Source: Candidatus Babeliales bacterium (GTDB taxonomy: Bacteria > Babelota > Babeliae > Babelales > JABDEC01). From it: a stretch of 30,363 nt of DNA. The DNA lies in assembly GCA_031292305.1 (NCBI GenBank), contig JARLHJ010000018.1, positions 1 to 30,363 of the forward strand, read 5' to 3'. This document shows positions 3,763 through 30,363 of the stretch, piece by piece. The notes under the pieces were generated by a model that saw only the letters and a list, made by a program, of their open reading frames with translations, searched no databases and was not told where the DNA came from. The first letter of the stretch is position 1. Every line of letters begins with the position of its first letter. The position numbers and the translations under genes are program-made.

Positions 3763-5250
3763 TTAAAAAATTGATGTAACTTTATCCCACATAGTCGCTA
3801 ACCAAGATTTTTGTTTTTTTGGCATCGCTTGCTTGCTTTGAGATTCACCCTTTAATTTATTTTCTAATTCATTTTGTTTTCTTAGTTCTTCTTCACGTTG
3901 CAATTTTTCAAATTGTTCTTTTAGATTTCCAGTCTCTTTTTCCAAGTCGTTAACTTTTGTAACGATTGAATTAGACAGCTTATCTACATTATCTAATAAA
4001 TCTTGATAATATTTTTTTAAATCAGCGCTTAAATATATTTGAATGTTTTGAATACTTTTTAAATCAGCTTCAATTTGATAAAACAATGTTTTTGCTTTCT
4101 TATCATTTAAAACACGTCCTATTTCTTTAAAGTCTTGCCATGCGCTTTTTTCATAATCTCTAGATTTATTTACTTGATCAACTAGTTGATTAATAACATT
4201 ATCAACTGATATGTCTAACTCACTTAATGAATTTAAATCCGTTTGAACTTTTTCAATATCTTCTTTTTTGTGACCTAAAATATCCAAAAATTCTCTAGCG
4301 GGAGCTTCCAAGCCATGAGCTTCTCTTTCTAGAGAAAGCTGATGTAGGAAATATTCAAGAACTTGTGAAATTTCTCCTTGCTCAAATCCTAACTTACGGA
4401 ACAAGTCGCTTAATTTTTTATCTAACTCACTTCTTTTTGATATATAATCGATTTGTAATTTTATTACATCATCGTTAAGAGAAATTATTTTTTCAAATGT
4501 TTGCTCAGCTTGTTCCCACCATACACGTTTTAAAAGCCAGTTTCCCTCTTCTTCTACATCTAATGTATTTATATTAGACATAACAGCTTCTCTTTCTTTT
4601 TTTGCAGCGGGCTTTTCTTCTATTTTTGTAGGGATAGCAACGGGCGTCACTGATGTAGCAACATCATTTGCTGGCGGTACAGGTATTGGGGCTTGTACAA
4701 CTGAAACCTCTGGTGGGGTTAATGCAGCTGTTGTATCTTGTGGTGCTGCGCCCACAACATTAACTTCTGGTGATATTGTTTCAACTGGAGATACTGTTTC
4801 AACTGGAGTTACTGACGGGGTATTTATTGTAGCATCAACTTGTGGTTGAATAGATATACCTGTGGCAAGATCAACTGGCTGAGTCTGCCCAGGCGCAGAT
4901 GACGCTGGAGTTTCAGGCGTCACTACTTCTTGAGTGGGTTTATTTTTTATTGTATTTGGCACCTCTGTTGTTGGAGCTGAGGAATCTATAGCTACCGAAG
5001 CTGCAGTAGGCGTAGTATTAACTGCTGAACTTGTAATTGGAGAAACACCCGGAGTTCTGACTTCCAAATTTGGTTGAGTAACAGGAGTTGATGGAGCAAC
5101 TGTAGTTACTACACCATTATTTCCCGCATTTGCGGCTTGAACACCTGTTGGAGTTTGACTTACAACCGGTGAAGATGCACCACCAGGAGCATCTTGCGTT
5201 AAAATATATGCAAAATTAAAAATTAAAAAAGCAAAATATAAGACTATCAT
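3763..5250 (-). CDS. Exported Pro/Thr/Val-rich coiled-coil protein, unknown function
   Basis: I do not recognise a family. The 495-residue product begins with a hydrophobic stretch (about residues 2-18) that reads as a signal peptide or anchor. Residues about 20-215 are low-complexity sequence rich in Pro, Thr, Val, Ala and Ser with repeated PxVxPVET-like pieces, which suggests an extended, disordered exported region. Residues about 220-495 are strongly helical with heptad-like spacing and many Glu/Lys/Leu, likely coiled coil. A basic patch (KQAMPKKQKS) and a short aromatic tail (WLATMWDKVTSIF) close the protein; the tail could be an amphipathic membrane-contacting helix. AAAGG lies upstream of the ATG. 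It is a single gene between tRNA-Leu and the PPOX gene. A surface or host-facing structural protein is possible. Confidence 0.8.
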   Translation of the reverse strand: MIVLYFAFLIFNFAYILTQDAPGGASSPVVSQTPTGVQAANAGNNGVVTTVAPSTPVTQPNLEVRTPGVSPITSSAVNTTPTAASVAIDSSAPTTEVPNTIKNKPTQEVVTPETPASSAPGQTQPVDLATGISIQPQVDATINTPSVTPVETVSPVETISPEVNVVGAAPQDTTAALTPPEVSVVQAPIPVPPANDVATSVTPVAIPTKIEEKPAAKKEREAVMSNINTLDVEEEGNWLLKRVWWEQAEQTFEKIISLNDDVIKLQIDYISKRSELDKKLSDLFRKLGFEQGEISQVLEYFLHQLSLEREAHGLEAPAREFLDILGHKKEDIEKVQTDLNSLSELDISVDNVINQLVDQVNKSRDYEKSAWQDFKEIGRVLNDKKAKTLFYQIEADLKSIQNIQIYLSADLKKYYQDLLDNVDKLSNSIVTKVNDLEKETGNLKEQFEKLQREEELRKQNELENKLKGESQSKQAMPKKQKSWLATMWDKVTSIF

Positions 5251-5285
5251 ACTACAAACCTTTTATTATTATTAACTACTTTCAA

Positions 5286-5747
5286 CTATAAGACTAAAGC
5301 AAGTTCTTTTAATTCAGTCAATAATGCTTCACATAATTCTTCAGCTTCTTTAGAAACATATCCCCATCTAATCCCAGAATCTACTCTGGTTAAAACTGAT
5401 CTGTCGCTTTTTATATCAATAATATCTATTCTCACCACGTTCATTAATGGATGAACTGATGATGGAGCTCGGACTACCCCTGCTCTACCTAAAACACTGT
5501 AAGCAACATTGCCTTCATCCATAAAACATAACATAACTTTTTTCTGCCATACCATATTATGATATCCGGTATGTTCTTTGTGAATTGAAATTAAAAAACT
5601 TTCAACTCCTTTTGGATAGATCCATTGAATAGGTGTTGTATGTGGCAATCCTTTTTCAGAAAATGTAGATAAAATACAAACGGTTTTTCCTTTTTTCAAG
5701 ACTTCTAATAAGTCTTCTGGGAGTTTAGCCCCAACATGTTTTGCCAT
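5286..5747 (-). CDS. Pyridoxamine 5'-phosphate oxidase-like (PPOX) FMN-binding split-barrel protein
   Basis: The 153-residue product resembles the small PPOX/general stress FMN-binding split-barrel proteins. The N-terminal half has the usual alternation of strands: KTVCILSTFSEKG, then PHTTPIQWIYPKG, then a strand ending SIHKEHTGYHNM. Strands VMLCFMDEGNVAYSVLGRAGV complete the barrel. The length is typical of the single-domain family. These proteins bind FMN, F420 or haem and act as oxidoreductases or flavin binders; the substrate cannot be read from sequence, and I see no specific support for a PdxH role in vitamin B6 synthesis. AGGA lies about 10 nt before the ATG. It sits apart from its neighbours with its own upstream spacer, so it is likely monocistronic. 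Confidence 0.7.
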   Translation of the reverse strand: MAKHVGAKLPEDLLEVLKKGKTVCILSTFSEKGLPHTTPIQWIYPKGVESFLISIHKEHTGYHNMVWQKKVMLCFMDEGNVAYSVLGRAGVVRAPSSVHPLMNVVRIDIIDIKSDRSVLTRVDSGIRWGYVSKEAEELCEALLTELKELALVL

Positions 5748-5787
5748 AAAAAAATCATCCTATATTAAAAAAATAATCACAATAATA

Positions 5788-5793
5788 ATTATA
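5788..5793 (-). promoter_or_regulatory. Possible -10 element for the PPOX gene
   Basis: The minus strand reads TATAAT about 40 nt upstream of the ATG at 5747. No convincing -35 box was found at 16-18 nt. The spacer is A+T-rich, so chance matches are common. Confidence 0.35.
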
Positions 5794-5944
5794 CACTAAA
5801 AATTAATTTATTTTACTTACAGATTTTAAATTGAACGTTATGCTAGCACAAAAGCTCAAGCTTCCCACAATTAATTAACATAGTTTTCAAAAAAAATTGG
5901 CCTACTTATAGTATACCAGACGTGTCAAGCCCCCTATTTGAATA

Positions 5945-6460
5945 CTAGGTTTTTGAGTTGTTTATGTTCGATTTGTATTTCTCAATCGACTTAGCCGTCG
6001 TTTTTATCGCATTCAAATCTTCATGAATACGATTTTCATCAATTAGTGAATTTGCAAATTTTACAAGTTGAGCGCGCTTTATTATTAAATCTATATTTAT
6101 AACTTCTGAAGAATTTAAATTATTTAAAAAATCTATTATTTCATCATCTGTTAAACTATAGAGTTCATCATTAAATGTATCAGATAAGTAGTTTTTAAAA
6201 ATTAAGATTAATCTTATATAAAAAACCTCAGGATTGTGCTTATGCTTTGATAATAAAGCTATTTCATGATCAAATTTTTCAATCGGTGACAATTTTTTTA
6301 TCTTTGATTCTTTAATTTTTTTTATTACTAAAATTAAAACTACGCCCAAAATTAAAAATACTAATATCCCAATAGCCCAGTAAAAACTTTTAGTTTGCCA
6401 AAAAGGCTGATACCAGATTTCATAGTTTGTAAGATCTAACCCTGATTTTTTAATATCCAT
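5945..6460 (-). CDS. Single-pass membrane protein, DUF4381-like (Bat/aerotolerance-type operon)
   Basis: The 171-residue protein has a short N-terminal segment with aromatic residues (IWYQPFWQTKSFYW), one membrane helix at about residues 27-47, a basic stop-transfer segment (KKIKESKIKK) and a helical cytosolic domain. This architecture matches DUF4381 proteins, which are encoded beside DUF58 proteins in MoxR-Bat clusters. Here it begins one base after the stop of the DUF58 gene, so the two are translationally coupled. The cytosolic part (LTDDEIIDFL, then a C-terminal helix) probably binds partner proteins. The function is inferred from position and layout; sequence similarity to DUF4381 is weak by eye. 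Confidence 0.6.
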   Translation of the reverse strand: MDIKKSGLDLTNYEIWYQPFWQTKSFYWAIGILVFLILGVVLILVIKKIKESKIKKLSPIEKFDHEIALLSKHKHNPEVFYIRLILIFKNYLSDTFNDELYSLTDDEIIDFLNNLNSSEVINIDLIIKRAQLVKFANSLIDENRIHEDLNAIKTTAKSIEKYKSNINNSKT

Positions 6461-20844: not shown

Positions 20845-21288
20845 ATGGAAAAACAAATAACGCTAGCAATTATTAAGCCAGATGCAGTAGCTGCTAAAAA
20901 CACAGGCAAAATAATTGATTTAATTGAACATAATGGATTTGAAATATTAGGTCTTGGTAAAATTCAATTAACAAAAGAACACGCAGAAACTTTTTATGCA
21001 GTTCACGCAGAACGTGGTTTCTTTCCTGAATTAGTTGAATTTATGACTTCAGGACCTGTAGTTGTTTTAGCTCTTGAAAAAGAAAATGCAGTTGCTGAAT
21101 GGCGCAAATTAATGGGAGAAACAGATCCTGCTAAAGCTGCTGCCGGCACAGTTCGTAAACTTTACGGTAAATCTATTGGCGAAAATGCAACTCATGGTTC
21201 AGATTCTGAAGAAAATGCAGAAGCTGAAATTGAATTCTTTTTCCCATATATGGATGAAGAAGATGATATCGAACTAGAATTAGAATAA
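20845..21288 (+). CDS. ndk: Nucleoside diphosphate kinase (cytosolic form)
   Basis: This enzyme moves the gamma phosphate between nucleoside tri- and diphosphates through a phosphohistidine. The 147-residue protein has the standard start [18 protein letters not shown] and the active-site signature NATHGSDS with the catalytic histidine at about residue 117. The core length is normal, but the C-terminus is extended by an acidic tail ([12 protein letters not shown]). AAGGAA precedes the ATG. It follows the rpsA hairpin and has its own terminator. A second ndk with an N-terminal hydrophobic segment lies immediately downstream, and the two share most of their core sequence, so they arose by tandem duplication. 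Confidence 0.96.
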
Positions 21289-21396: not shown

Positions 21397-21924
21397 ATGA
21401 ATTCCCACAAATGTAACAATAAAAAAATGTTCTTAGTTGCTTTAGTTATAATTGCATCTATTGCTTCTGTATTTGCATACAAAAAAATGAAAACTTTTAA
21501 TATATTTAAAAGAGAGCAAGAATTAACTTTAGCAATAATTAAGCCTGATGCTGTAGCAGCAAAAAACACAGGCAAGATTATTGATATTATCGAGCAAACT
21601 GGATTTGACATTGTAGGCTTAGAAAAAATAACTCTTAATAAAGAAAAAGCTGAACAATTTTATGCAGTACACAAAGATCGTCCATTCTATAATGATTTAG
21701 TTAAATTTATGACTGAAGGACCTGTTGTTGTTATTGCGTTATCTAAAGAAAATGCGGTTGCAGACTGGCGCAACTTAATGGGTGCAACTAACCCTGAAAA
21801 CGCTGACTCTAATACTATACGCAAATTGTTTGGCACAAGCATTCAACGCAATGCAACTCATGGATCTGATTCTGTTGAAAATGCAAAAAATGAAGTTAAA
21901 TTCTTTTTTCCAAATATTAAGTAA
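21397..21924 (+). CDS. Nucleoside diphosphate kinase paralog with N-terminal export/anchor segment
   Basis: The 175-residue protein is a complete NDK ([18 protein letters not shown] from about residue 46; NATHGSDS with the active histidine near 160) preceded by about 42 extra residues. These run from a short basic, Asn/Lys-rich start through a hydrophobic stretch (MFLVALVIIASIASVFA, residues 11-27) to a basic segment, YKKMKTFNIFKR. The hydrophobic stretch fits a signal peptide, with SVFA a possible cleavage site, or a membrane anchor. The extension is absent from the neighbouring ndk. GGAG is well placed before the ATG at 21397. NDKs are normally soluble and cytosolic, so this one is predicted to be at or beyond the inner membrane; its side is uncertain. 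Confidence 0.93.
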   Translation: MNSHKCNNKKMFLVALVIIASIASVFAYKKMKTFNIFKREQELTLAIIKPDAVAAKNTGKIIDIIEQTGFDIVGLEKITLNKEKAEQFYAVHKDRPFYNDLVKFMTEGPVVVIALSKENAVADWRNLMGATNPENADSNTIRKLFGTSIQRNATHGSDSVENAKNEVKFFFPNIK

Positions 21925-22007: not shown

Positions 22008-23603
22008 TTATTTCCATTGAGCTATGCTCGCGATCTTACATTGAGCACTAGTTATTGGTAATGCAACTGGTATAGTAGGCTTATTTTTTAACTTTAAATT
22101 GCAACTTTTAGCCTTAGCATCATATACTGCAGTTATATTAGATGCACTACATAAAGCTGCTGTATTTAAGCCCAATTGTGTAGTTACATTATTTCCAACT
22201 ATATAACAGTTTTTTGGAGCCGCTGCCACTGGTTTTGGTGCTGCCGCCACTGGCTTTGGTGCTGGAGCTACTACAGGTTTTGGTGCTGGAGCTACTACAG
22301 GTTTTGGTGCTGGAGCTACTACAGGTTTTTGTGCTGCCACAATTGGAGCTGCCAACGGAGTTGCCGCTGGTTTATTATATGCTGCTGCTGCATCTGTTGC
22401 TGCTTTATCTGCTGCTGCATTTGCTCTTGCTACTGCTGCATCTGTTGCTATTTGTGCTTCTGCTGCTGCTTTATCACTAGCTGCTTTTGCATTCGCTGCA
22501 TCCTGCACCGCTTGAGCCGCCGCTTGATCTGCTGGTGACGCTTGTGGAACTACTGGAGCTACGGGCTGAACTACTGGTGTCGCTGCGGGTGCAATTGCTG
22601 CCGCTGGCACCGAATTAGTAGTAGCGCAAGTATTTTGATAACTTGGCCAAGGATAGCCATCACATTCTAATGTATGCGTTGTCTTCCAATTATTCCCACT
22701 TTGATTTTTAAATAAACTTACATTTCCATTACCATCCCAATTGAATTGAACTTCTAAATTGTCTCCATTTACAGGAGTATAATATGGCGCTACTGTTGGG
22801 AAATCAGTGTTATTATCAGAAATCTGATGACCACCACCTGTATTGCTGTAATTAAAACCAAAATTGCCTGTGCAGGTTATTGGTACAGTCTGAGTTTGAT
22901 TGCCTGCAATTTTTAATGGAAAAGCAGTAGAGCTTGTACAATTTATAAGTTTATTAATCTGAATTGTATCGCCAGTTCCATTAGTAAATTTAACTGTTCC
23001 TGTAGTTGATGGTCCAACAGGTTGAACTACTGGTGTGGCAATTACTGTTGTTTTATCGACAGTTGAAGGTACTTTAATAGCCGCTGTTGCTGGCATTTTA
23101 TCAGCAGTACCATATAAAGCTTTAGCAAAATTTGAAGGAATTGTCGCAGTATCACCTTCTTTTGTACTAGAAATTTGATTTCCATCAGCTCCCAATAATA
23201 CCAATACTTTAACTACCCACGGTGCTGGATCCCCCCCTAGATTATCATTGGTCACTACTATAGAAGTTTTACCTTGAATTTTATCAGATACATCATTTGG
23301 ATTAGGAAGTTTTACAAAGGCTTGGATTTTATCTGCAGTACCATATAAAGCTTTAGTAAAGTTTGAAGGAATTGTCGCAGTATCGCCTTCTTTTGTGCTA
23401 GAAATTTTACTTCCATCAGACCCTAATAATACTAATACTTTACCTACACCAGGTACCGGATCCCCCCCTAGATTATCATTTGTAACTACTATAGAAGTTT
23501 TACCTTGAATTTTATCAGATACATCATTTGGATTTGTTAAACCTACAAGATTACTAGACGTCAGTATAAATGCTGAAATTAACAATAGATTCTTTATTCT
23601 CAT
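22008..23603 (-). CDS. Large exported repeat protein, Ala/Pro-rich, unknown function
   Basis: No family is recognised. With the ATG at 23603 (GGGAG upstream; the frame is open to 23648 but lacks a ribosome site there) the product has 531 residues. It starts with a signal peptide (MRIKNLLLISAFILTSSNLV). Two near-identical modules of about 77-79 residues follow (KTSIVVTNDNLGGDP, then VLVLLG and STKEGDTATIPSNF). Next comes a middle domain with paired cysteines (CTSSTAFPLKIAGNQTQTV, later LECDGYPWPSYQNTC). The last part is an Ala-rich helical stretch (DQAAAQAVQDAANAKAASDK), then KPVVAPAP repeats, then a C-terminal domain with cysteines (CYIVGNNVTTQLG, CNLKLKNK). A modular secreted or surface protein is likely. 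Confidence 0.85.
   Translation of the reverse strand: MRIKNLLLISAFILTSSNLVGLTNPNDVSDKIQGKTSIVVTNDNLGGDPVPGVGKVLVLLGSDGSKISSTKEGDTATIPSNFTKALYGTADKIQAFVKLPNPNDVSDKIQGKTSIVVTNDNLGGDPAPWVVKVLVLLGADGNQISSTKEGDTATIPSNFAKALYGTADKMPATAAIKVPSTVDKTTVIATPVVQPVGPSTTGTVKFTNGTGDTIQINKLINCTSSTAFPLKIAGNQTQTVPITCTGNFGFNYSNTGGGHQISDNNTDFPTVAPYYTPVNGDNLEVQFNWDGNGNVSLFKNQSGNNWKTTHTLECDGYPWPSYQNTCATTNSVPAAAIAPAATPVVQPVAPVVPQASPADQAAAQAVQDAANAKAASDKAAAEAQIATDAAVARANAAADKAATDAAAAYNKPAATPLAAPIVAAQKPVVAPAPKPVVAPAPKPVVAPAPKPVAAAPKPVAAAPKNCYIVGNNVTTQLGLNTAALCSASNITAVYDAKAKSCNLKLKNKPTIPVALPITSAQCKIASIAQWK
22252..22323 (-). repeat. 24-bp minisatellite, three units, inside the 22008 gene
   Basis: Three consecutive 24-bp units read (plus strand) GGYTTTGGTGCTGGAGCTAC followed by TACA; units two and three are identical. 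Degenerate copies flank them. Each unit encodes 8 residues (a KPVVAPAP-type block), so gain or loss of units keeps the frame. Confidence 0.9.
23067..23534 (-). repeat. Tandem duplication of a 77-79 residue module
   Basis: Copy one (23304-23534) and copy two (23067-23303) are adjacent direct repeats within the exported repeat protein. Their DNA is nearly identical over long runs, for example around the GGATCCCCCC both share, so the duplication looks recent. Confidence 0.9.
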
Positions 23604-23627
23604 AATATTCTCCCTTTTTTTGTTTAT

Positions 23628-23633
23628 ATTATA
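23628..23633 (-). promoter_or_regulatory. Candidate -10 element for the exported repeat protein
   Basis: TATAAT on the minus strand lies 24 nt upstream of the ATG at 23603. A TTGATT-like -35 exists, but at about 20 nt it is spaced too far to be convincing. Confidence 0.35.
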
Positions 23634-23825
23634 TGTATAGATTAACACATTTAAATCAAAAAAAGATACAGATTGAATTAAATATATGAAAAAATACGAT
23701 AGTTCAACATTTTTTATGGGGGTGAAAGTTAATATGTGGACTATAAATCGAAAGCTAAGATAGTTATTTTAAAGTAAATACTAGATAAAAAACTTAAGCT
23801 TTTAGTTTTTTATAATTTTTTAAAA

Positions 23826-24257: not shown

Positions 24258-24956
24258 ATGAGCTACTTTTGTTTGATTTTTTTAATATTAATTTTTAATA
24301 TTTCGTCTCTAGATTATAATTTTTTTAGTCAATTTGGACAAGATAGATATGTTTTTGAACATTTTAAGAATAAAAAAAATGGAATATTTATAGAAATGGG
24401 TGGCTCAGACGGAATTACTAATAGCAACACCTATTTTTTTGAAAAATATTTAAACTGGAAAGGAATTTGTATTGAGCCAGTGGAATATTTATTTAAACAA
24501 TTAATCAAAAATAGAAAATCAATAAATTTGAATTGCGCTGTATGGAAAATCGATGGATATGCTTCTTTTATAGAGACTCAGCTTCCTGGTGAAAAAAATC
24601 TTGGATGGAGTGGTTTAATTGACACTTATGATCAAAGACATAAAGATGAATTAGTTAATTTTTGGCAAAAAATTCATAATTGTATAGTCAAAGAAACAAA
24701 GATTTATTGTCGTCAATTTAATAATATATGCAAAGAATATGAAATTTCACATATTGATTTTTTAAGTATAGATACTGAAGGATCTGAACTTGATATAATA
24801 AAAACTATAGATTTTGAAAAAATTCTTATAGATATTATTACAGTAGAAGATAATTTCAACGATACTAGCATTACAGAATTTTTAAAAACAAAAGGCTTCG
24901 ATTTTATTATTAGATTAGGCGTCGATAATATTTATAAAAACAAACGCCTCACCTAA
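24258..24956 (+). CDS. FkbM family methyltransferase with N-terminal signal-like segment
   Basis: A 232-residue SAM-dependent methyltransferase of the FkbM type, often an O-methyltransferase of sugars. The domain starts with SQFGQDRYVFEHF at about residue 24, followed by the SAM-binding GIFIEMGGSDGITNSNT (a G-x-DG variant of motif I), GICIEPVEYLF, and DFLSIDTEGSELDIIKTIDF near 165-185, all standard for the family. The first 20 residues are hydrophobic (YFCLIFLILIFNISS) and precede the conserved start, so they look like a signal peptide or anchor. CGGAG precedes the ATG. SAM is a cytosolic cofactor, so export would be puzzling. Four other glycan-related genes lie within 6 kb. Confidence 0.88.
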   Translation: MSYFCLIFLILIFNISSLDYNFFSQFGQDRYVFEHFKNKKNGIFIEMGGSDGITNSNTYFFEKYLNWKGICIEPVEYLFKQLIKNRKSINLNCAVWKIDGYASFIETQLPGEKNLGWSGLIDTYDQRHKDELVNFWQKIHNCIVKETKIYCRQFNNICKEYEISHIDFLSIDTEGSELDIIKTIDFEKILIDIITVEDNFNDTSITEFLKTKGFDFIIRLGVDNIYKNKRLT

Positions 24957-24970
24957 AAATATTTAATTTT

Positions 24971-25483
24971 TTATTGAATTTCAGGCTTTAATTCTTCTAT
25001 ACGTTTAGATGCTTCATCTAACACGCCATTTACAAATTTATAAGCATCTAACTCAGAAAAACCCTTAGCAAGTTCAACAGCTTCGTTAATTACAATAGTA
25101 GATGGTGTATCTAAAGTTAAAAGTTCCCAAATTCCTAGGTATAAAACTAGTTTTGTACAAACTCCTAATCGCTCTAAGCGCCAATTTACTAGAAACCTTT
25201 GTATAATACTATCAAGCTGAGTACGAACCAAAGCAATTTTTTCAACAACTTGTGCTGGTTCACTATCTAATGGAATATCTAAATCAAAACCTCTATTAAA
25301 ATCATCCACCACAGAATCAATCGATACATTATAGTCATTAGATTCTAAAGCATAAAGCAAGTGAAACATTACTGAGCGAATATCACGACGTGATAATTTC
25401 GCATAAGTAAATTTCTCATCAACTATATTATCTTCTTGGTCGTTCTGTTGCATATCTAATGGATCAGTTGTTTCATCTATCAT
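24971..25483 (-). CDS. nusB: Transcription antitermination protein NusB
   Basis: An all-helical RNA-binding protein that, with NusE (S10), binds boxA in antitermination complexes on rRNA operons. The 170-residue protein has an acidic N-terminal extension of about 30 residues before the NusB fold begins at SRRDIRSVMFHLLYALES. The typical C-terminal signature is present: LGIWELL, then PSTIVINEAVELAKGFS and KFVNGVLDEASKR. It lies 84 nt downstream of efp on the same strand, so the two are probably cotranscribed, and converges with the FkbM gene. Confidence 0.95.
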   Translation of the reverse strand: MIDETTDPLDMQQNDQEDNIVDEKFTYAKLSRRDIRSVMFHLLYALESNDYNVSIDSVVDDFNRGFDLDIPLDSEPAQVVEKIALVRTQLDSIIQRFLVNWRLERLGVCTKLVLYLGIWELLTLDTPSTIVINEAVELAKGFSELDAYKFVNGVLDEASKRIEELKPEIQ

Positions 25484-25567
25484 GATTTTAACTTTTAATG
25501 TTTAGAATTTGAATTACCAAACCCCCTATGGATTTGGTTTATAAAAATCTGAGCAACAGCGATAATA

Positions 25568-26134
25568 TTATTTCTTTACACGCTCAATATAACTACCATC
25601 TCTAGTATCAACTTTAATTAAATCACCTTCGTTTACAAATAAAGGAATATTTAACACAAGTCCAGATTCTAGCGTAGCTGGTTTTGTTACTGAACCTTGA
25701 GCAGTATCGCCTCTTATACCAGGAACTGTTTCTGTAACTTTTAATTCCATAAATGTAGGAGGAGTAATCTCGATTGGTTTAGCTTCAAAGAACATAACAT
25801 TATAAACTTCTTGTTCTCTTAAATAGTTTATAACTTCGCCTAGCTCTTTTTTGTTAAAAAACTCTTGTTCGTAATTTTCTTGATCCATGAAATAATAATT
25901 ATCATCTTCTGAATATAAAAATTGCATTTTCTTATATTCTAAATCTGGAGTTGGGAATTTTTCTTCTGTTCTAAATGTTTCTTCATGCATTAATCCGGAA
26001 ATCATGTTTTTCATTTTGGTGCGAACAAAAGCCCCACCTTTTCCTGGTTTAACATGCTGAAATTCTGCAACTACGTATGGCTGATCTTTATATAAAAACT
26101 TTGAGCCTTTTCTGAATTCTGATGCTGCAATCAC
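25568..26134 (-). CDS. efp: Translation elongation factor P
   Basis: EF-P relieves ribosome stalling at consecutive prolines, relevant here given several Pro-rich exported proteins. The 188-residue protein has three OB-like domains: SEFRKGSKFLYKDQPYVVAEFQHVKPGKGGAFV at the N-terminus (quoted family region about residues 5-37), with the modifiable lysine in PGKGG at about residue 32, a middle domain, and the C-terminal RGDTAQGSVTKPATLESGL signature. The start codon is GTG (26132-26134), supported by AGGAG 8 nt upstream. The modification enzyme for the lysine (EpmA or other) is not in the window. Divergent from glyA. Confidence 0.96.
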   Translation of the reverse strand: MIAASEFRKGSKFLYKDQPYVVAEFQHVKPGKGGAFVRTKMKNMISGLMHEETFRTEEKFPTPDLEYKKMQFLYSEDDNYYFMDQENYEQEFFNKKELGEVINYLREQEVYNVMFFEAKPIEITPPTFMELKVTETVPGIRGDTAQGSVTKPATLESGLVLNIPLFVNEGDLIKVDTRDGSYIERVKK

Positions 26135-26157
26135 GGATATGCTCCTAAGGTAATCTG

Positions 26158-26163
26158 ATTATA
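26158..26163 (-). promoter_or_regulatory. Candidate -10 element for efp-nusB
   Basis: Minus-strand TATAAT sits 24 nt upstream of the GTG start of efp. A matching -35 was not convincing. Confidence 0.4.
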
Positions 26164-26256
26164 GTAATAAGTTTAAATAAAGGCATAAAAAAAGCAATAG
26201 AAAGCTAATTTTTAATTTTTCACCCTTTCTTTCACCCCAATTCTTGATTTGATTCT

Positions 26257-27549
26257 ATGTCCAAAAGAGAATATCCTATGGTTCGATACGATTTTTTCAA
26301 AATCACTCACCAAGATCGGGACTCAATGAAATTAAGTAACATAGACAATCAAATTTTTGAATTAATAAATAAAGAAAAAATACGCCAAAAGACAGAAATA
26401 AACCTAATAGCTTCGGAAAACTATGTCGATGATTCGGTATTAGAAGCTACGGGGTCAATTTTAACTAATAAATACGCTGAAGGGTATCCTGGTAAGCGAT
26501 ACTATGCTGGCTGTCAATTTGTAGATGAAATAGAGCAATTAGCAATTGATCGCTGCAAAGAATTATTTAATGTCGAACATGCTAATGTGCAACCTCATGC
26601 GGGATCACAGGCCAATATGGCTGCATATTTTGCATTGTTAGAACCTGGTGACACTATTATGGGAATGCAATTAGCCCAAGGTGGACATTTAACGCATGGG
26701 CATAACGTAAATTTTTCAGGGAAAGTATATAAATCAGTTTCTTATGGAGTAGATCCAGAAACTGAACAAATTAATTATGATTTATTAGAAGAATTGGCTT
26801 ACGACTTTAAACCAAAAATAATTATTGCTGGCGCTTCAGCATATTCAAGAACAATCGACTTTTTTAAATTTGCTCGCATTGCAAAATTAACAGGTGCTTA
26901 TTTAATGTGCGATATTGCACATATTGCAGGCTTAATAGCTGCAGGTCTACATCCTAATCCTGCAGAACATGCAGACATAATCACTAGTACTACCCATAAA
27001 ACTTTACGCGGTCCGCGTAGTGGCTTAATTATGAGTAAAGCAGAACATGCGAGCAAGATTGATAAGGCGGTTTTCCCGGGAATGCAAGGCGGCCCATTTA
27101 TGCACATTATTGCTGCAAAAGCAGTGGCATTTAAATTAGCAATGCAACCAAGTTTTATTGAATATCAAAAACAGGTTATAAAAAATGCCCAGCATATGGC
27201 ACAAACATTTACACAATTAGGCTATAGAATAGTTTCTGGCGGTACTGATAATCATCTTTTTATGGTTGATTTAAGATCAAAAAAATTGACTGGAAAAGTT
27301 GTTACTGAAATTCTGGAAAAAGTAGGTATTTATGTTAATAAAAATGCTATTCCATTTGATCCTGAAAAACCTACTATTACAAGTGGAATTCGGATTGGCA
27401 CACCTGCTATAACTACTCGTGGTTTTAAAGAAAAAGAATGTGAAGAAATTGTTTATTTAATTCATGAGACATTAGAAAATAAGGATAATATTCAAAAAAT
27501 TGAAGTAATTAAAAATAAAGTTAATGATTTATGTAATAGGTTTAATTAA
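26257..27549 (+). CDS. glyA: Serine hydroxymethyltransferase
   Basis: A PLP enzyme that converts serine and tetrahydrofolate to glycine and 5,10-methylene-THF, the main one-carbon source. The frame gives 430 residues. Family motifs are clear: [20 protein letters not shown] near the start, [34 protein letters not shown], and [13 protein letters not shown] with the PLP lysine (HK) at about residue 249. The true start is uncertain. ATGs at 26257, 26278 (AGAGAA upstream) and 26326 are all in frame, and the last gives 407 residues, closest to the family alignment. The 3' end overlaps the convergent gene ending at 27529 by 21 bases. Confidence 0.96.
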
Positions 27550-28416
27550 AGTGAGTATTAAATCTGCCATTTCTTTTAAATCATTTTTTATTGCATAATT
27601 ATAAGCTTGCCATTCCAAACTATAAGCTTTGTATTTGTTGTATAACTCTATGCCTTTATTTAGGGTATTTATGTCTTGCTCAAGACTTCTTTTATATAAA
27701 TAACTATGATCTAATGGGTTATAACCTGGCCGGCATTTTATAGTATGCTCTTTAGAATAATTTCTTATCCCAGACAATTGCAAATGATATGTTTTTATAG
27801 AAAGACATGGATTAATTGTTATAAAATTATTGCTTTTTACATGATCTATAAGAGCATTATCGCAACCTAAAACCCCTAATTCAAAATCACTTTTGAATTT
27901 TTTTATTGGTGTGCAGAAAATCCAACTATCTTGTGATAATTTGTGATACAATGTTGGAGTTTCATTTATATTAATGTTCCATCTTGTTAAACCAATAAAA
28001 ATATTGGTCAAATTATAATTTGATAATAGATTTAATGTTTCATCAAAATAAATATCTGCATTGCTAATAATAATTTTGGAATTCGGATAGAGTAAATTTG
28101 ATAAGTTAAAGCAATCTTCATAAGTAGGTCTTTTATTTATAGGCTTTATTATTACTTTTCTCTTCATCAAATAATTAAATAATATACACTCGTCATCGTC
28201 TTTTGAATTATCATACATTACATGAATCTTTTTTATCATTTTATTTCTAAGATTTGCTTCTAAGCAAATTATATATTCAGAAATTCGATCTAAATTCGTT
28301 TCATTATACAAACTGGTTAAAAGAACAAATCTATTATCTTCAGGAATGATTAAATCTGAAAAAACCGTGTTTAAAATTACCAGGGTAAATATTATTTTTA
28401 TGATGGGCGTATTCAT
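27529..28416 (-). CDS. Glycosyltransferase-like protein with signal peptide, paralog 1
   Basis: The 295-residue product starts with a signal-like segment ([15 protein letters not shown]). The mature part opens [15 protein letters not shown], then [12 protein letters not shown], then [17 protein letters not shown] (an Asn-Ala-Asp block like the donor-site acid motif of GT-A glycosyltransferases), [27 protein letters not shown] and [10 protein letters not shown]. Glycosyltransferase-like proteins with a short-chain start and an N/A/T-D-I-Y-F motif are known beside FkbM and sulfotransferase genes; the exact family is from memory and not certain. It is the last gene of a three-gene operon and overlaps the end of glyA. 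An exported sugar or glycan-modifying enzyme is possible. Confidence 0.6.
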
Positions 28417-28437
28417 ATTTCCCTTTGATTAATTATT

Positions 28438-29268
28438 TTAATCAATCGAATTAATTACATCTAACATTAAATTTGCGAGCATTTTTAAATTTTTACTCTT
28501 TGCGTATTCATAAGCTAACCATTTCAATTTAGAAGTGTTAATTCGCTCCAACTTTCTTTGTCCTAAGCTAGAATGATTTAATGGAATGTACTCCGGACCG
28601 GTTTTTATATAAAACTGCTTGTCATAATTTCTTATTCCAGATAAATGTAAATGATAAGTTATAATGGAAAAGCAGGGATTTTCAGCTTTAAATTTATTTT
28701 TTAGAACCTGCTCTATAAGCGCATTTTCACAGCCCAACACACCCAATTCAAAATCGCTTTTAAAATTTTTTATCGGAGTTTTATAAATCCAACTATCTTG
28801 CGACAAATTGCGATACAACTTTGTCGCTCCACCTTTTTTAACATCCCATCTAGTTAACCCCATAAACTTATTTTTTAGGCTATAGTTTGATAATAGATTT
28901 AAGCTTTCATCAAAATATATATCTGCATTTGAGATTATTATTCTTGATTTTGGGTAAATAGAATTAGATAGATTAAAAATTTCTTCATATGTTGGTCGCT
29001 TGCTAATATAGTTTATTATTACTTTTTTTTGCTTTAAATAAGCGTGTAACAAACATTTATCATCATCTTTAGATTTATCATACAATATGTGAATTTTTTT
29101 AATCATTTTGTTTTTAAGATTGGCTTCTAAACAAATTATATATTCACAAATACGATCTAAATTTGTCTCATTATACAAACTTGTAAACAAAATAAAGCCC
29201 TGAGATAAATTATTTAAAAATATATTTCCAAAAATAAAAAACAGGGCTATTTTTGTTTTGTAATTCAT
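28438..29268 (-). CDS. Glycosyltransferase-like protein with signal peptide, paralog 2
   Basis: The 276-residue product is a tandem paralog of the gene at 27529. It has the same order of blocks: [71 protein letters not shown] and HLHLSGIRNY. The N-terminus (KIALFFIFGNIFLNNLSQG) is again signal-like. The pair are clearly related over their whole length but diverge in the C-terminal third, where the first has an extra 20 or so residues. It starts 9 nt after the stop of the sulfotransferase gene and is followed after 21 nt by paralog 1. The function is inferred only from motif resemblance and from its neighbours. Confidence 0.6.
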   Translation of the reverse strand: MNYKTKIALFFIFGNIFLNNLSQGFILFTSLYNETNLDRICEYIICLEANLKNKMIKKIHILYDKSKDDDKCLLHAYLKQKKVIINYISKRPTYEEIFNLSNSIYPKSRIIISNADIYFDESLNLLSNYSLKNKFMGLTRWDVKKGGATKLYRNLSQDSWIYKTPIKNFKSDFELGVLGCENALIEQVLKNKFKAENPCFSIITYHLHLSGIRNYDKQFYIKTGPEYIPLNHSSLGQRKLERINTSKLKWLAYEYAKSKNLKMLANLMLDVINSID

Positions 29269-29277
29269 ACTACAAAT

Positions 29278-30063
29278 TTACCAATTTAAATCTTTTTCAT
29301 AGCCTAAATCTATCAGTAATTGGCCAAAGTTTTTCTTAAAAGTATTTTTTTGCTTTTGTGTAAAATTAGTTTTCCAGGATCCTATTTTTCCTGATCTAAA
29401 GGTTCCTGTTTTCCCCCAAAGATTGTTCACAACTCGAATCACATCTGCATTAGTAATTTTTAAATTTAAATGGCGGGCGATTTTAGAAATTTCAGCGATT
29501 TGTTTTTTTGAAGTTCCACCACCTTGTGGGCCTACCAGATCTTCAAATTTTATAGTACAAACATCTGGTTGTTTAATCCACCCGATATATGCATCATAAT
29601 AATATATAAAATGTCCTTTTTTATTAACTAAATAAGTTATAAGTTGATTAATTCCTAAGCTTGAGGTTTCAGCAAAAGCTTTAGGGTATTTTTTCATCCA
29701 ATAAGCCAAAGAAACTAATTGATCTCTAGGGTCTCTAAGAGTAAAAAAAGTTATAAAATTGCCTTCTTTTACAAAATTTAAAGCATGTTCATTGCATACA
29801 AGATGTTTATGAAATATTAATTTATCTTGAAAGGCGTGAATTTTGTCGAAATATGCTCTACCGCCACCTTCAAATCCATCCATGTTATTTTTTTGCTCTT
29901 TGCCTGTTAACAATGAAAGACATTTTCCAATTAAATGGGTTCCTGCTTTAGGAATACTTGTAAAAAAAACGGGTCTTTGTTCGCTTGAAATTGTACTTAT
30001 ATATAAAAACAAAACACATGACACAATAACCTGATTATGTTTTAATAAAAGCCTTAAAGACAT
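29278..30063 (-). CDS. Sulfotransferase-domain protein with signal peptide
   Basis: The 261-residue product has the PAPS-dependent sulfotransferase fold. The 5' phosphosulfate-binding loop is IPKAGTHLIGKCL at about residues 37-49 (family PKSGT), the 3' phosphate loop is RDPRDQLVSLAYWM at about 110-123, and FRSGKIGSWKTNFT near the C-terminus matches the FRxGxxGDWK motif of cytosolic-type sulfotransferases. KFEDLVGPQGG follows the usual strand. The first 28 residues (VIVSCVLFLYISTISS) form a signal or anchor segment, odd for an enzyme using cytosolic PAPS. AGGGGA precedes the ATG. It is first in an operon with two glycosyltransferase-like genes. Acceptor unknown. Confidence 0.88.
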   Translation of the reverse strand: MSLRLLLKHNQVIVSCVLFLYISTISSEQRPVFFTSIPKAGTHLIGKCLSLLTGKEQKNNMDGFEGGGRAYFDKIHAFQDKLIFHKHLVCNEHALNFVKEGNFITFFTLRDPRDQLVSLAYWMKKYPKAFAETSSLGINQLITYLVNKKGHFIYYYDAYIGWIKQPDVCTIKFEDLVGPQGGGTSKKQIAEISKIARHLNLKITNADVIRVVNNLWGKTGTFRSGKIGSWKTNFTQKQKNTFKKNFGQLLIDLGYEKDLNW

Positions 30064-30179: not shown

Positions 30180-30363
30180 ATGTTAAAACAATTAATTGCC
30201 AACTTTTTTACTTATTCACTCGGTGCAATTATTTTACGCTGCATTACGGCTATAATTGCACTTTCTTCAATTACTTTTTTATCTCCAACCGAATATGGGC
30301 TTTTGGCACTAATAAATACATTTATTGGAATATTGCCTATATTTTTTAATTTAGGCCTACGGC
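30180..30363 (+). CDS. Start of a polysaccharide/oligosaccharide flippase-like membrane protein (partial)
   Basis: Sixty-one residues are visible before the window ends, starting LKQLIANFFTYSLGAIILR. Two hydrophobic helices follow: IITAIIALSSITFL-like sequence with the PTEYG turn, then LLALINTFIGILPIFFNLGL. A positively charged start, a first helix, an SPTEYGLLAL turn and a G-L-R after the second helix are typical of Wzx/MATE-like exporters of lipid-linked oligosaccharides. The call rests on this short N-terminus. It is divergent from the sulfotransferase operon and suggests that a glycan cluster continues beyond the window. Confidence 0.6.
   Translation, partial: MLKQLIANFFTYSLGAIILRCITAIIALSSITFLSPTEYGLLALINTFIGILPIFFNLGLR

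Follow-up and report, generated by a model that had tools for sequence, protein, structure and literature searches.

The 30,363-nucleotide stretch analysed here (the window) corresponds to contig C4 in a Candidatus Babeliales draft genome of 1.53 Mb in 47 contigs (92% complete, 4.6% contamination). It encodes an FkbM-family methyltransferase, a 3'-phosphoadenosine 5'-phosphosulfate (PAPS)-type sulfotransferase and two glycosyltransferase (GT)-like paralogues, a and b, all of which carry signal-like N-termini. Their open reading frames (ORFs) are laid out as follows, the learned motif being a cleavage-site-like pattern described below:

24258..24956, + strand: FkbM-family methyltransferase of the SQxGQD subfamily, with signal-like N-terminus (PF05050, TIGR01444, homologues)
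24258..24308, + strand: its signal-like segment MSYFCLIFLILIFNISS, with a putative cut before LDY (hydropathy 3.58, learned motif)
27529..28416, - strand: GT-A-like glycosyltransferase b with signal-like segment (62-63% identical to a)
28357..28416, - strand: signal-like segment of b, 20 residues, with a putative cut before DLI (hydropathy)
28438..29268, - strand: GT-A-like glycosyltransferase a with signal-like segment (structural model, phage relatives)
29203..29268, - strand: signal-like segment of a, MNYKTKIALFFIFGNIFLNNLS, its end putative (hydropathy)
29278..30063, - strand: PAPS-type sulfotransferase, the signal-like segment standing directly before the 5'-phosphosulfate-binding loop SIPKAGTHL (PF00685, paralogue alignment)
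29983..30063, - strand: its signal-like segment MSLRLLLKHNQVIVSCVLFLYISTISS, with a putative cut before EQR (hydropathy, learned motif)

In each case the catalytic domain is intact and follows immediately on a short hydrophobic N-terminus. The methyltransferase scores 59.2 bits against PF05050 (cut-off 22.7) and 40.9 against TIGR01444 (cut-off 37.7), and the sulfotransferase 32.7 bits against PF00685 (cut-off 22). The catalytic motifs legible in the window proteins are intact, namely the S-adenosylmethionine (SAM) motif EMGGSDG and, in the sulfotransferase, SIPKAGTHL and RDPRDQLVS, both with close counterparts in five of the six further paralogues aligned. The sulfotransferase and the two GT-like genes sit closely packed in one minus-strand operon, with 9 and 21 bases between them, and the FkbM gene stands on its own; a single operon of all four is ruled out, as the signal-free genes for NusB, EF-P and GlyA lie in between.

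Neither GT-like paralogue matches a Pfam or NCBIfam family, which leaves both outside the curated glycosyltransferase families with a known donor. A model of protein a (mean predicted local distance difference test score 67.8, pTM 0.70, i.e. moderate confidence) resembles the chondroitin synthase CHSY3-CHPF with Z 13.5 and many GT-A enzymes with Z 12-13.5 over residues 20-218, which supports a GT-A fold for the pair at moderate confidence. A direct search for relatives in the named genomes and viral contigs returned none; they were reached only via a protein of cyanophage S-SKS1. These relatives, in the cyanophage and in viral contigs, have no N-terminal addition; their first residues already belong to the domain.

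The first-pass annotation of this DNA had described a hydrophobic signal-like stretch ahead of the conserved domain in all four enzymes, and the ORFs and their hydropathy bear this out. Measured as the Kyte-Doolittle mean of the best uncharged 10-mer near the N-terminus, hydropathy reaches 3.58 in the methyltransferase, 2.82 in the sulfotransferase, 2.32 in b and 2.39 in a (MNYKTKIALFFIFGNIFLNN), and the most hydrophobic 15-mer of each protein is its N-terminus. No such stretch is present in the flanking NusB, EF-P and GlyA or in a cytosolic nucleoside diphosphate kinase (NDK). All four genes start with ATG. A start at a later in-frame codon would leave part of the hydrophobic stretch in place or else lie within the domain or at its very edge (codon 46 in FkbM, codons 26-59 in the GT-like proteins, codon 50 in the sulfotransferase), so that re-annotation of the starts downstream, which had been named as a refutation, would remove the stretch only by trimming close to or into the domain.

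Such N-termini are common in this genome. By a crude, home-made rule (an uncharged 10-residue stretch near the N-terminus with hydropathy >= 1.8 or 2.2), which also misses a few obvious signals, 57-63% of soluble genes are positive on 12 unselected contigs, 43% in the window, and 78-83% on eight stretches picked for FkbM or sulfotransferase genes. In the related Chromulinavorax destructans, Phobius assigns signal peptides to 44% of coding sequences (PMC6561590). Four positives out of four were rejected as evidence on their own, the base rate being too high (chance about 0.1), and support has to come from homologues and from the wider genome. One explanation is that the starts are wrong, or that AT-rich hydrophobic N-termini carry no targeting meaning; about 20-25% of shadow ORFs score as signal-like, and the predictor errs on Rossmann N-termini. 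We regard it as very improbable, given the ATG starts, some with a Shine-Dalgarno-like sequence, the housekeeping controls of the same genome and the family-matched contrasts in relatives, both reported below.

On the genome sample, the features of a Sec signal peptide (n-region charge, short core, cleavage-like motif) are found among the proteins selected by the rule. The hydrophobic core of the 158 rule-positive soluble proteins has a median of 12 residues, with a mean charge of +1.64 on its N side and -0.10 after it. An unsupervised expectation-maximization motif search returned [ILV]-x-[ASCG] followed by x-[DE], with a log-likelihood of 105 against 33-59 in 12 block shuffles; NISS/LDY in the methyltransferase and TISS/EQR in the sulfotransferase match it fully or nearly. 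These patterns favour cleaved signals over anchors. If the stretches were instead uncleaved anchors, the domains would be held on either face of the inner membrane, near ordinary cytosolic donors. Some stretches are indeed long (FkbM, GT4), and another protein of the window has lysines right behind its hydrophobic stretch:

21397..21924, + strand: second NDK, with a hydrophobic N-terminus followed by KK (PF00334, 178.7 bits)

However, a typical anchor would need a longer core than the median of 12 residues, the cleavage-site-like motif comes after the core, the charge bias places the domain outside, and the same addition is present on a PAPS synthase and on Gmd, for which there is no obvious reason for anchoring. 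We consider anchoring improbable.

The second NDK lies beside a plain, cytosolic one (20845-21288), both on the + strand. It is possibly a supplier of nucleoside triphosphates outside the cytosol; given the lysines after the stretch, it could be anchored instead.

The wider genome was sampled over about 360 kb in stretches, including eight contig stretches selected because of their FkbM or sulfotransferase genes. In the stretches read, 47 enzymes were labelled by Pfam or NCBIfam, plus the two GT-like proteins of the window, a biased sample and no census. Among the glycan-related enzymes, 41/47 are positive strictly by the rule and 44/47 by eye, the three additions being the PAPS synthase, one sulfotransferase and one UDP-glucose dehydrogenase, whereas none of the 11 housekeeping controls is. 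The signal-bearing set spans GT2, GT4, GT6, GT10, GT11, GT32 and GT47 families, FUT8-like enzymes, FkbM methyltransferases and about eight sulfotransferases. Judged from these predicted N-termini, export is the rule for glycan-type enzymes in this genome, and the four window proteins are not special. One exported GT2 domain is fused to ankyrin repeats (L062:1763-2953, + strand, genome G000, contig C6). On the same contig, a signal-bearing protein of 596 residues (L062:3809-5596, - strand) has an NDP-sugar epimerase domain behind an N-terminal part of 300 residues, which matches no known family.

In bacteria, sulfation and the synthesis of nucleotide sugars normally take place in the cytosol, since that is where ATP and the donors are found. 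The first-pass annotation had reasoned that Sec export would strand the enzymes without cofactor, a premise that is unsupported once the donor-making enzymes are considered. The only ATP sulfurylase and the only full-length adenosine 5'-phosphosulfate (APS) kinase match of the genome are one bifunctional PAPS synthase (L054:7160-8845, contig C31; NF004040, 869 bits, cut-off 669). It carries MKLLRYIFIFTYCINAWA in front, and its QTRNPMHRAH, GRDHAGPG and GLSGAGKST motifs are intact; the alignment with Aquifex SAT/APS kinase (2gks) begins at residue 8 of the latter, opposite residue 36 of the 573-residue frame, i.e. residue 25 counted from the ATG. Its neighbours are two exported sulfotransferases (L054:4486-5235 and 5250-6140) and two GT47 enzymes. 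Signals are also found on both Gmd (contig C8), on the GDP-fucose synthase Fcl (C18) and on both UDP-glucose dehydrogenases (C8 and C37). Moreover, the genome encodes two ATP/ADP translocases, implying a supply of host ATP at the inner membrane, and no SAM synthetase was detected in the draft genome, so that SAM would come from the host. Host ATP, sulfate, GDP-mannose and UDP-glucose could serve, as far as these sequences indicate, as starting materials for donor synthesis outside the cytosol.

Homologues with the same N-terminal extension are present among the sulfotransferase and FkbM homologues of the phylum and missing in free-living FkbM relatives. Across 33 phylum genomes, all 11 sulfotransferases of PF00685 carry the addition (one of them borderline by the rule), and they are confined to four of the 33, namely the present genome, G004, G021 and G024. 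No PAPS synthase was found in the other 32 genomes, so that the sulfotransferases of G004, G021 and G024 would depend on host PAPS. In the FkbM SQxGQD subfamily, a signal is present in 24 of the 26 rows that come from Dependentiae, Chlamydiota and one Endomicrobiellum, as against 0 of 35 other rows (Fisher p 5e-15, not corrected for relatedness); in this count the Chlamydiia row L134, which falls just short of the rule, is accepted as signal-bearing on inspection by eye, and rows whose origin was unclear are excluded. Many free-living relatives begin right at the domain. A single origin of the FkbM signal was rejected (AU, approximately unbiased, p 0.0005), the signal rows not forming one clade, on a tree with a poorly resolved backbone that shows eight signal changes; a paired test rested on two supported pairs only. 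The contrast suggests that the step of adding a signal was also taken in Chlamydiota, where homologues with signal-like N-termini include L129, L137, L143, L152, L163 and L174, among others.

The GDP-fucose enzymes of the relatives appear, from their alignments, in two versions, signal-free in ordinary surface-sugar clusters and signal-bearing in exported clusters. Gmd lacks a signal in G014, G015, G018, G019, G020, G021, G023 and G027 and has one in G008, G017 and G026. In the exported clusters, the NCBIfam alignments place about 20 additional residues in front of Gmd, Fcl and ManC, with the exception of Fcl in G026. Position 1 of the Gmd profile falls at residue 21-23 in G008, G017 and G026 and at residue 2 in G014, position 2 of the Fcl profile at residue 24 (G008, G017) as against residue 4 (G014), and the corresponding values for ManC are residue 24 (G026) as against residue 8 (G014). 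Most ORFs of the exported clusters are rule-positive (14/15 in G017, 12/14 in G008, 14/17 in the main G026 stretch), compared with 3/13 in G014 and 4/15 in G023, which by eye are mostly Rossmann or membrane proteins. Phylum-wide signal counts for UDP-glucose dehydrogenase were discarded, as the rule calls Rossmann N-termini signal-like. A mannose-1-phosphate guanylyltransferase-like protein with a signal is encoded in G026 (contig C10, L274:4366-5451, + strand), and GDP-mannose synthesis itself may be exported in this relative.

The members of the Dependentiae studied so far are intracellular in protists (PMC4378268, PMC6561590, PMC12172432). In Babela massiliensis, signal-bearing ankyrin proteins are proposed to reach the amoeba cytoplasm, and type II is the only secretion system reported (PMC4378268). 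Secretins were found in all 33 genomes.

The four window proteins would be part of a large exported toolkit for glycan, sulfate and methyl transfer in an intracellular Babeliales (Dependentiae) bacterium. The enzymes would pass the inner membrane by Sec export with signal removal, cross the outer membrane through a type II-like secretin or in vesicles, and be released into the host, where they would act on their acceptors. The donors would not be brought from the bacterial cytosol: the co-exported PAPS synthase would convert host ATP and sulfate into PAPS, Gmd and Fcl, exported likewise, would turn host GDP-mannose into GDP-fucose, and the co-exported UDP-glucose dehydrogenase would yield UDP-glucuronate, while SAM and the remaining nucleotide sugars would be supplied by the host. 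That enzymes and donor-makers are Sec-exported and run on host metabolites on the host side is in our estimation probable, if far from assured. The parts supported at the sequence level are the signal-like N-termini on intact catalytic domains, their presence on donor-making enzymes as well, and the contrast with relatives. The first-pass annotation had proposed a host-acting or anchored set; its direction outside the cytosol and towards the host is strengthened by the phylum homologues with the addition, the free-living FkbM relatives lacking it and the ankyrin-fused exported glycosyltransferase, and its anchored variant loses ground to the short cores and the cleavage-site-like motif.

Several observations weigh against this host-side interpretation. 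GalE and two GT4 enzymes have no signal; a test for small-residue (AxA) cleavage sites gave no significant excess over shuffles; the rule is misled by Rossmann N-termini and by shadow ORFs rich in AT; and, the genome being a draft, the absences of a cytosolic PAPS synthase and of a SAM synthetase are provisional. In addition, the start of a flippase-like gene beside the sulfotransferase operon, and divergent from it, fits a surface-glycan locus:

30180..30362, + strand: first part of a polysaccharide-flippase-like ORF that is truncated by the contig end (E 0.002-0.003 for PF01943/PF13440, short of the cut-off)

The principal alternative is that the enzymes undergo Sec export, stay in the periplasm or on the surface and modify the surface glycans of the bacterium itself once these have been flipped, with host ATP, sulfate, nucleotide sugars and SAM arriving by a putative porin passage. 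Besides the flippase-like ORF, the translocases, which imply host ATP in the periplasm, are consistent with it, as are the Gmd, Fcl, UDP-glucose dehydrogenase and GT sets, a typical content of loci for surface polysaccharides. However, two relatives keep signal-free clusters of surface type, one of them with Gmd, Fcl and ManC, so that surface glycans do not need export. The exported GT2 fused to ankyrin repeats also speaks for the host side, because signal-bearing ankyrin proteins are proposed effectors in the phylum. We judge the periplasmic alternative unlikely.

If the host-side interpretation holds, complete exported pathways for sulfation (PAPS synthase and about eight sulfotransferases) and fucosylation (Gmd, Fcl and several fucosyltransferases), running in the host on its ATP, sulfate and GDP-mannose, would amount to a secreted Golgi-like system, and related bacteria of two phyla would have arrived convergently at signals on enzymes whose free-living counterparts work in the cytosol. 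We advance this fuller picture only tentatively. Export signals on the only PAPS synthase and on the GDP-fucose enzymes suggest that biosynthesis can be moved into a host compartment, and foreign sulfated or fucosylated glycans are predicted in infected protists. A signal on a normally cytosolic enzyme would offer a sequence criterion for host-acting enzymes in uncultured intracellular bacteria.

The periplasmic aryl-sulfate sulfotransferase AssT is a known bacterial case of sulfotransfer beyond the cytosol and does not use PAPS; the Babeliales enzymes differ in being PAPS-type and accompanied by an exported PAPS synthase. The glycogen enzymes of Chlamydia trachomatis, which act in the inclusion lumen on host UDP-glucose, are likewise bacterial biosynthetic enzymes using a host nucleotide sugar outside the bacterium, but they lack signal peptides, are delivered by type 3 secretion and receive a donor imported by host SLC35D2 (PMC4829429), whereas the Babeliales set has Sec-type signals and its donor-making enzymes are exported too. 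Secreted hexokinases of microsporidia are also normally cytosolic metabolic enzymes that gained a signal peptide in an intracellular parasite, but in a eukaryote, by the endoplasmic reticulum route and for sugar phosphorylation, with no sulfation or fucosylation pathway (PMC6460350). Giant viruses and chloroviruses similarly bring their own glycosyltransferases and nucleotide-sugar enzymes as parasites of protists and algae; their proteins are made in the host and need no export step (PMC9614988, PMC5408694). The secretomes described for B. massiliensis (PMC4378268) and C. destructans (PMC6561590) come from members of the same phylum, and ankyrin proteins among them are proposed to be secreted into the host. 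The former paper does not mention glycosyltransferases, the latter mentions neither glycosyltransferases, methyltransferases nor sulfotransferases, and exported donor synthesis was not found described for Dependentiae secretomes. In the open-access literature we found no description of exported donor synthesis for sulfation and fucosylation, and no papers on a Dependentiae sulfotransferase, a PAPS synthase with signal peptide or a Babeliales glycosyltransferase.

Some other proteins of the window also have notable N-termini or repeats. An ADP-ribosylglycohydrolase (PF03747; 8709-9908, + strand) has a signal-like N-terminus and possibly serves host-acting de-ADP-ribosylation. An M3 peptidase (11421-13520, - strand) has a lipobox-like start, ...VFAVSCTKK, and is possibly a lipoprotein. 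Finally, a signal-bearing protein encoded at 22008-23648 (- strand) contains an internal duplication (NPNDVSDKIQGKTSIVVTNDNLGGDP) and alanine/proline-rich repeats.

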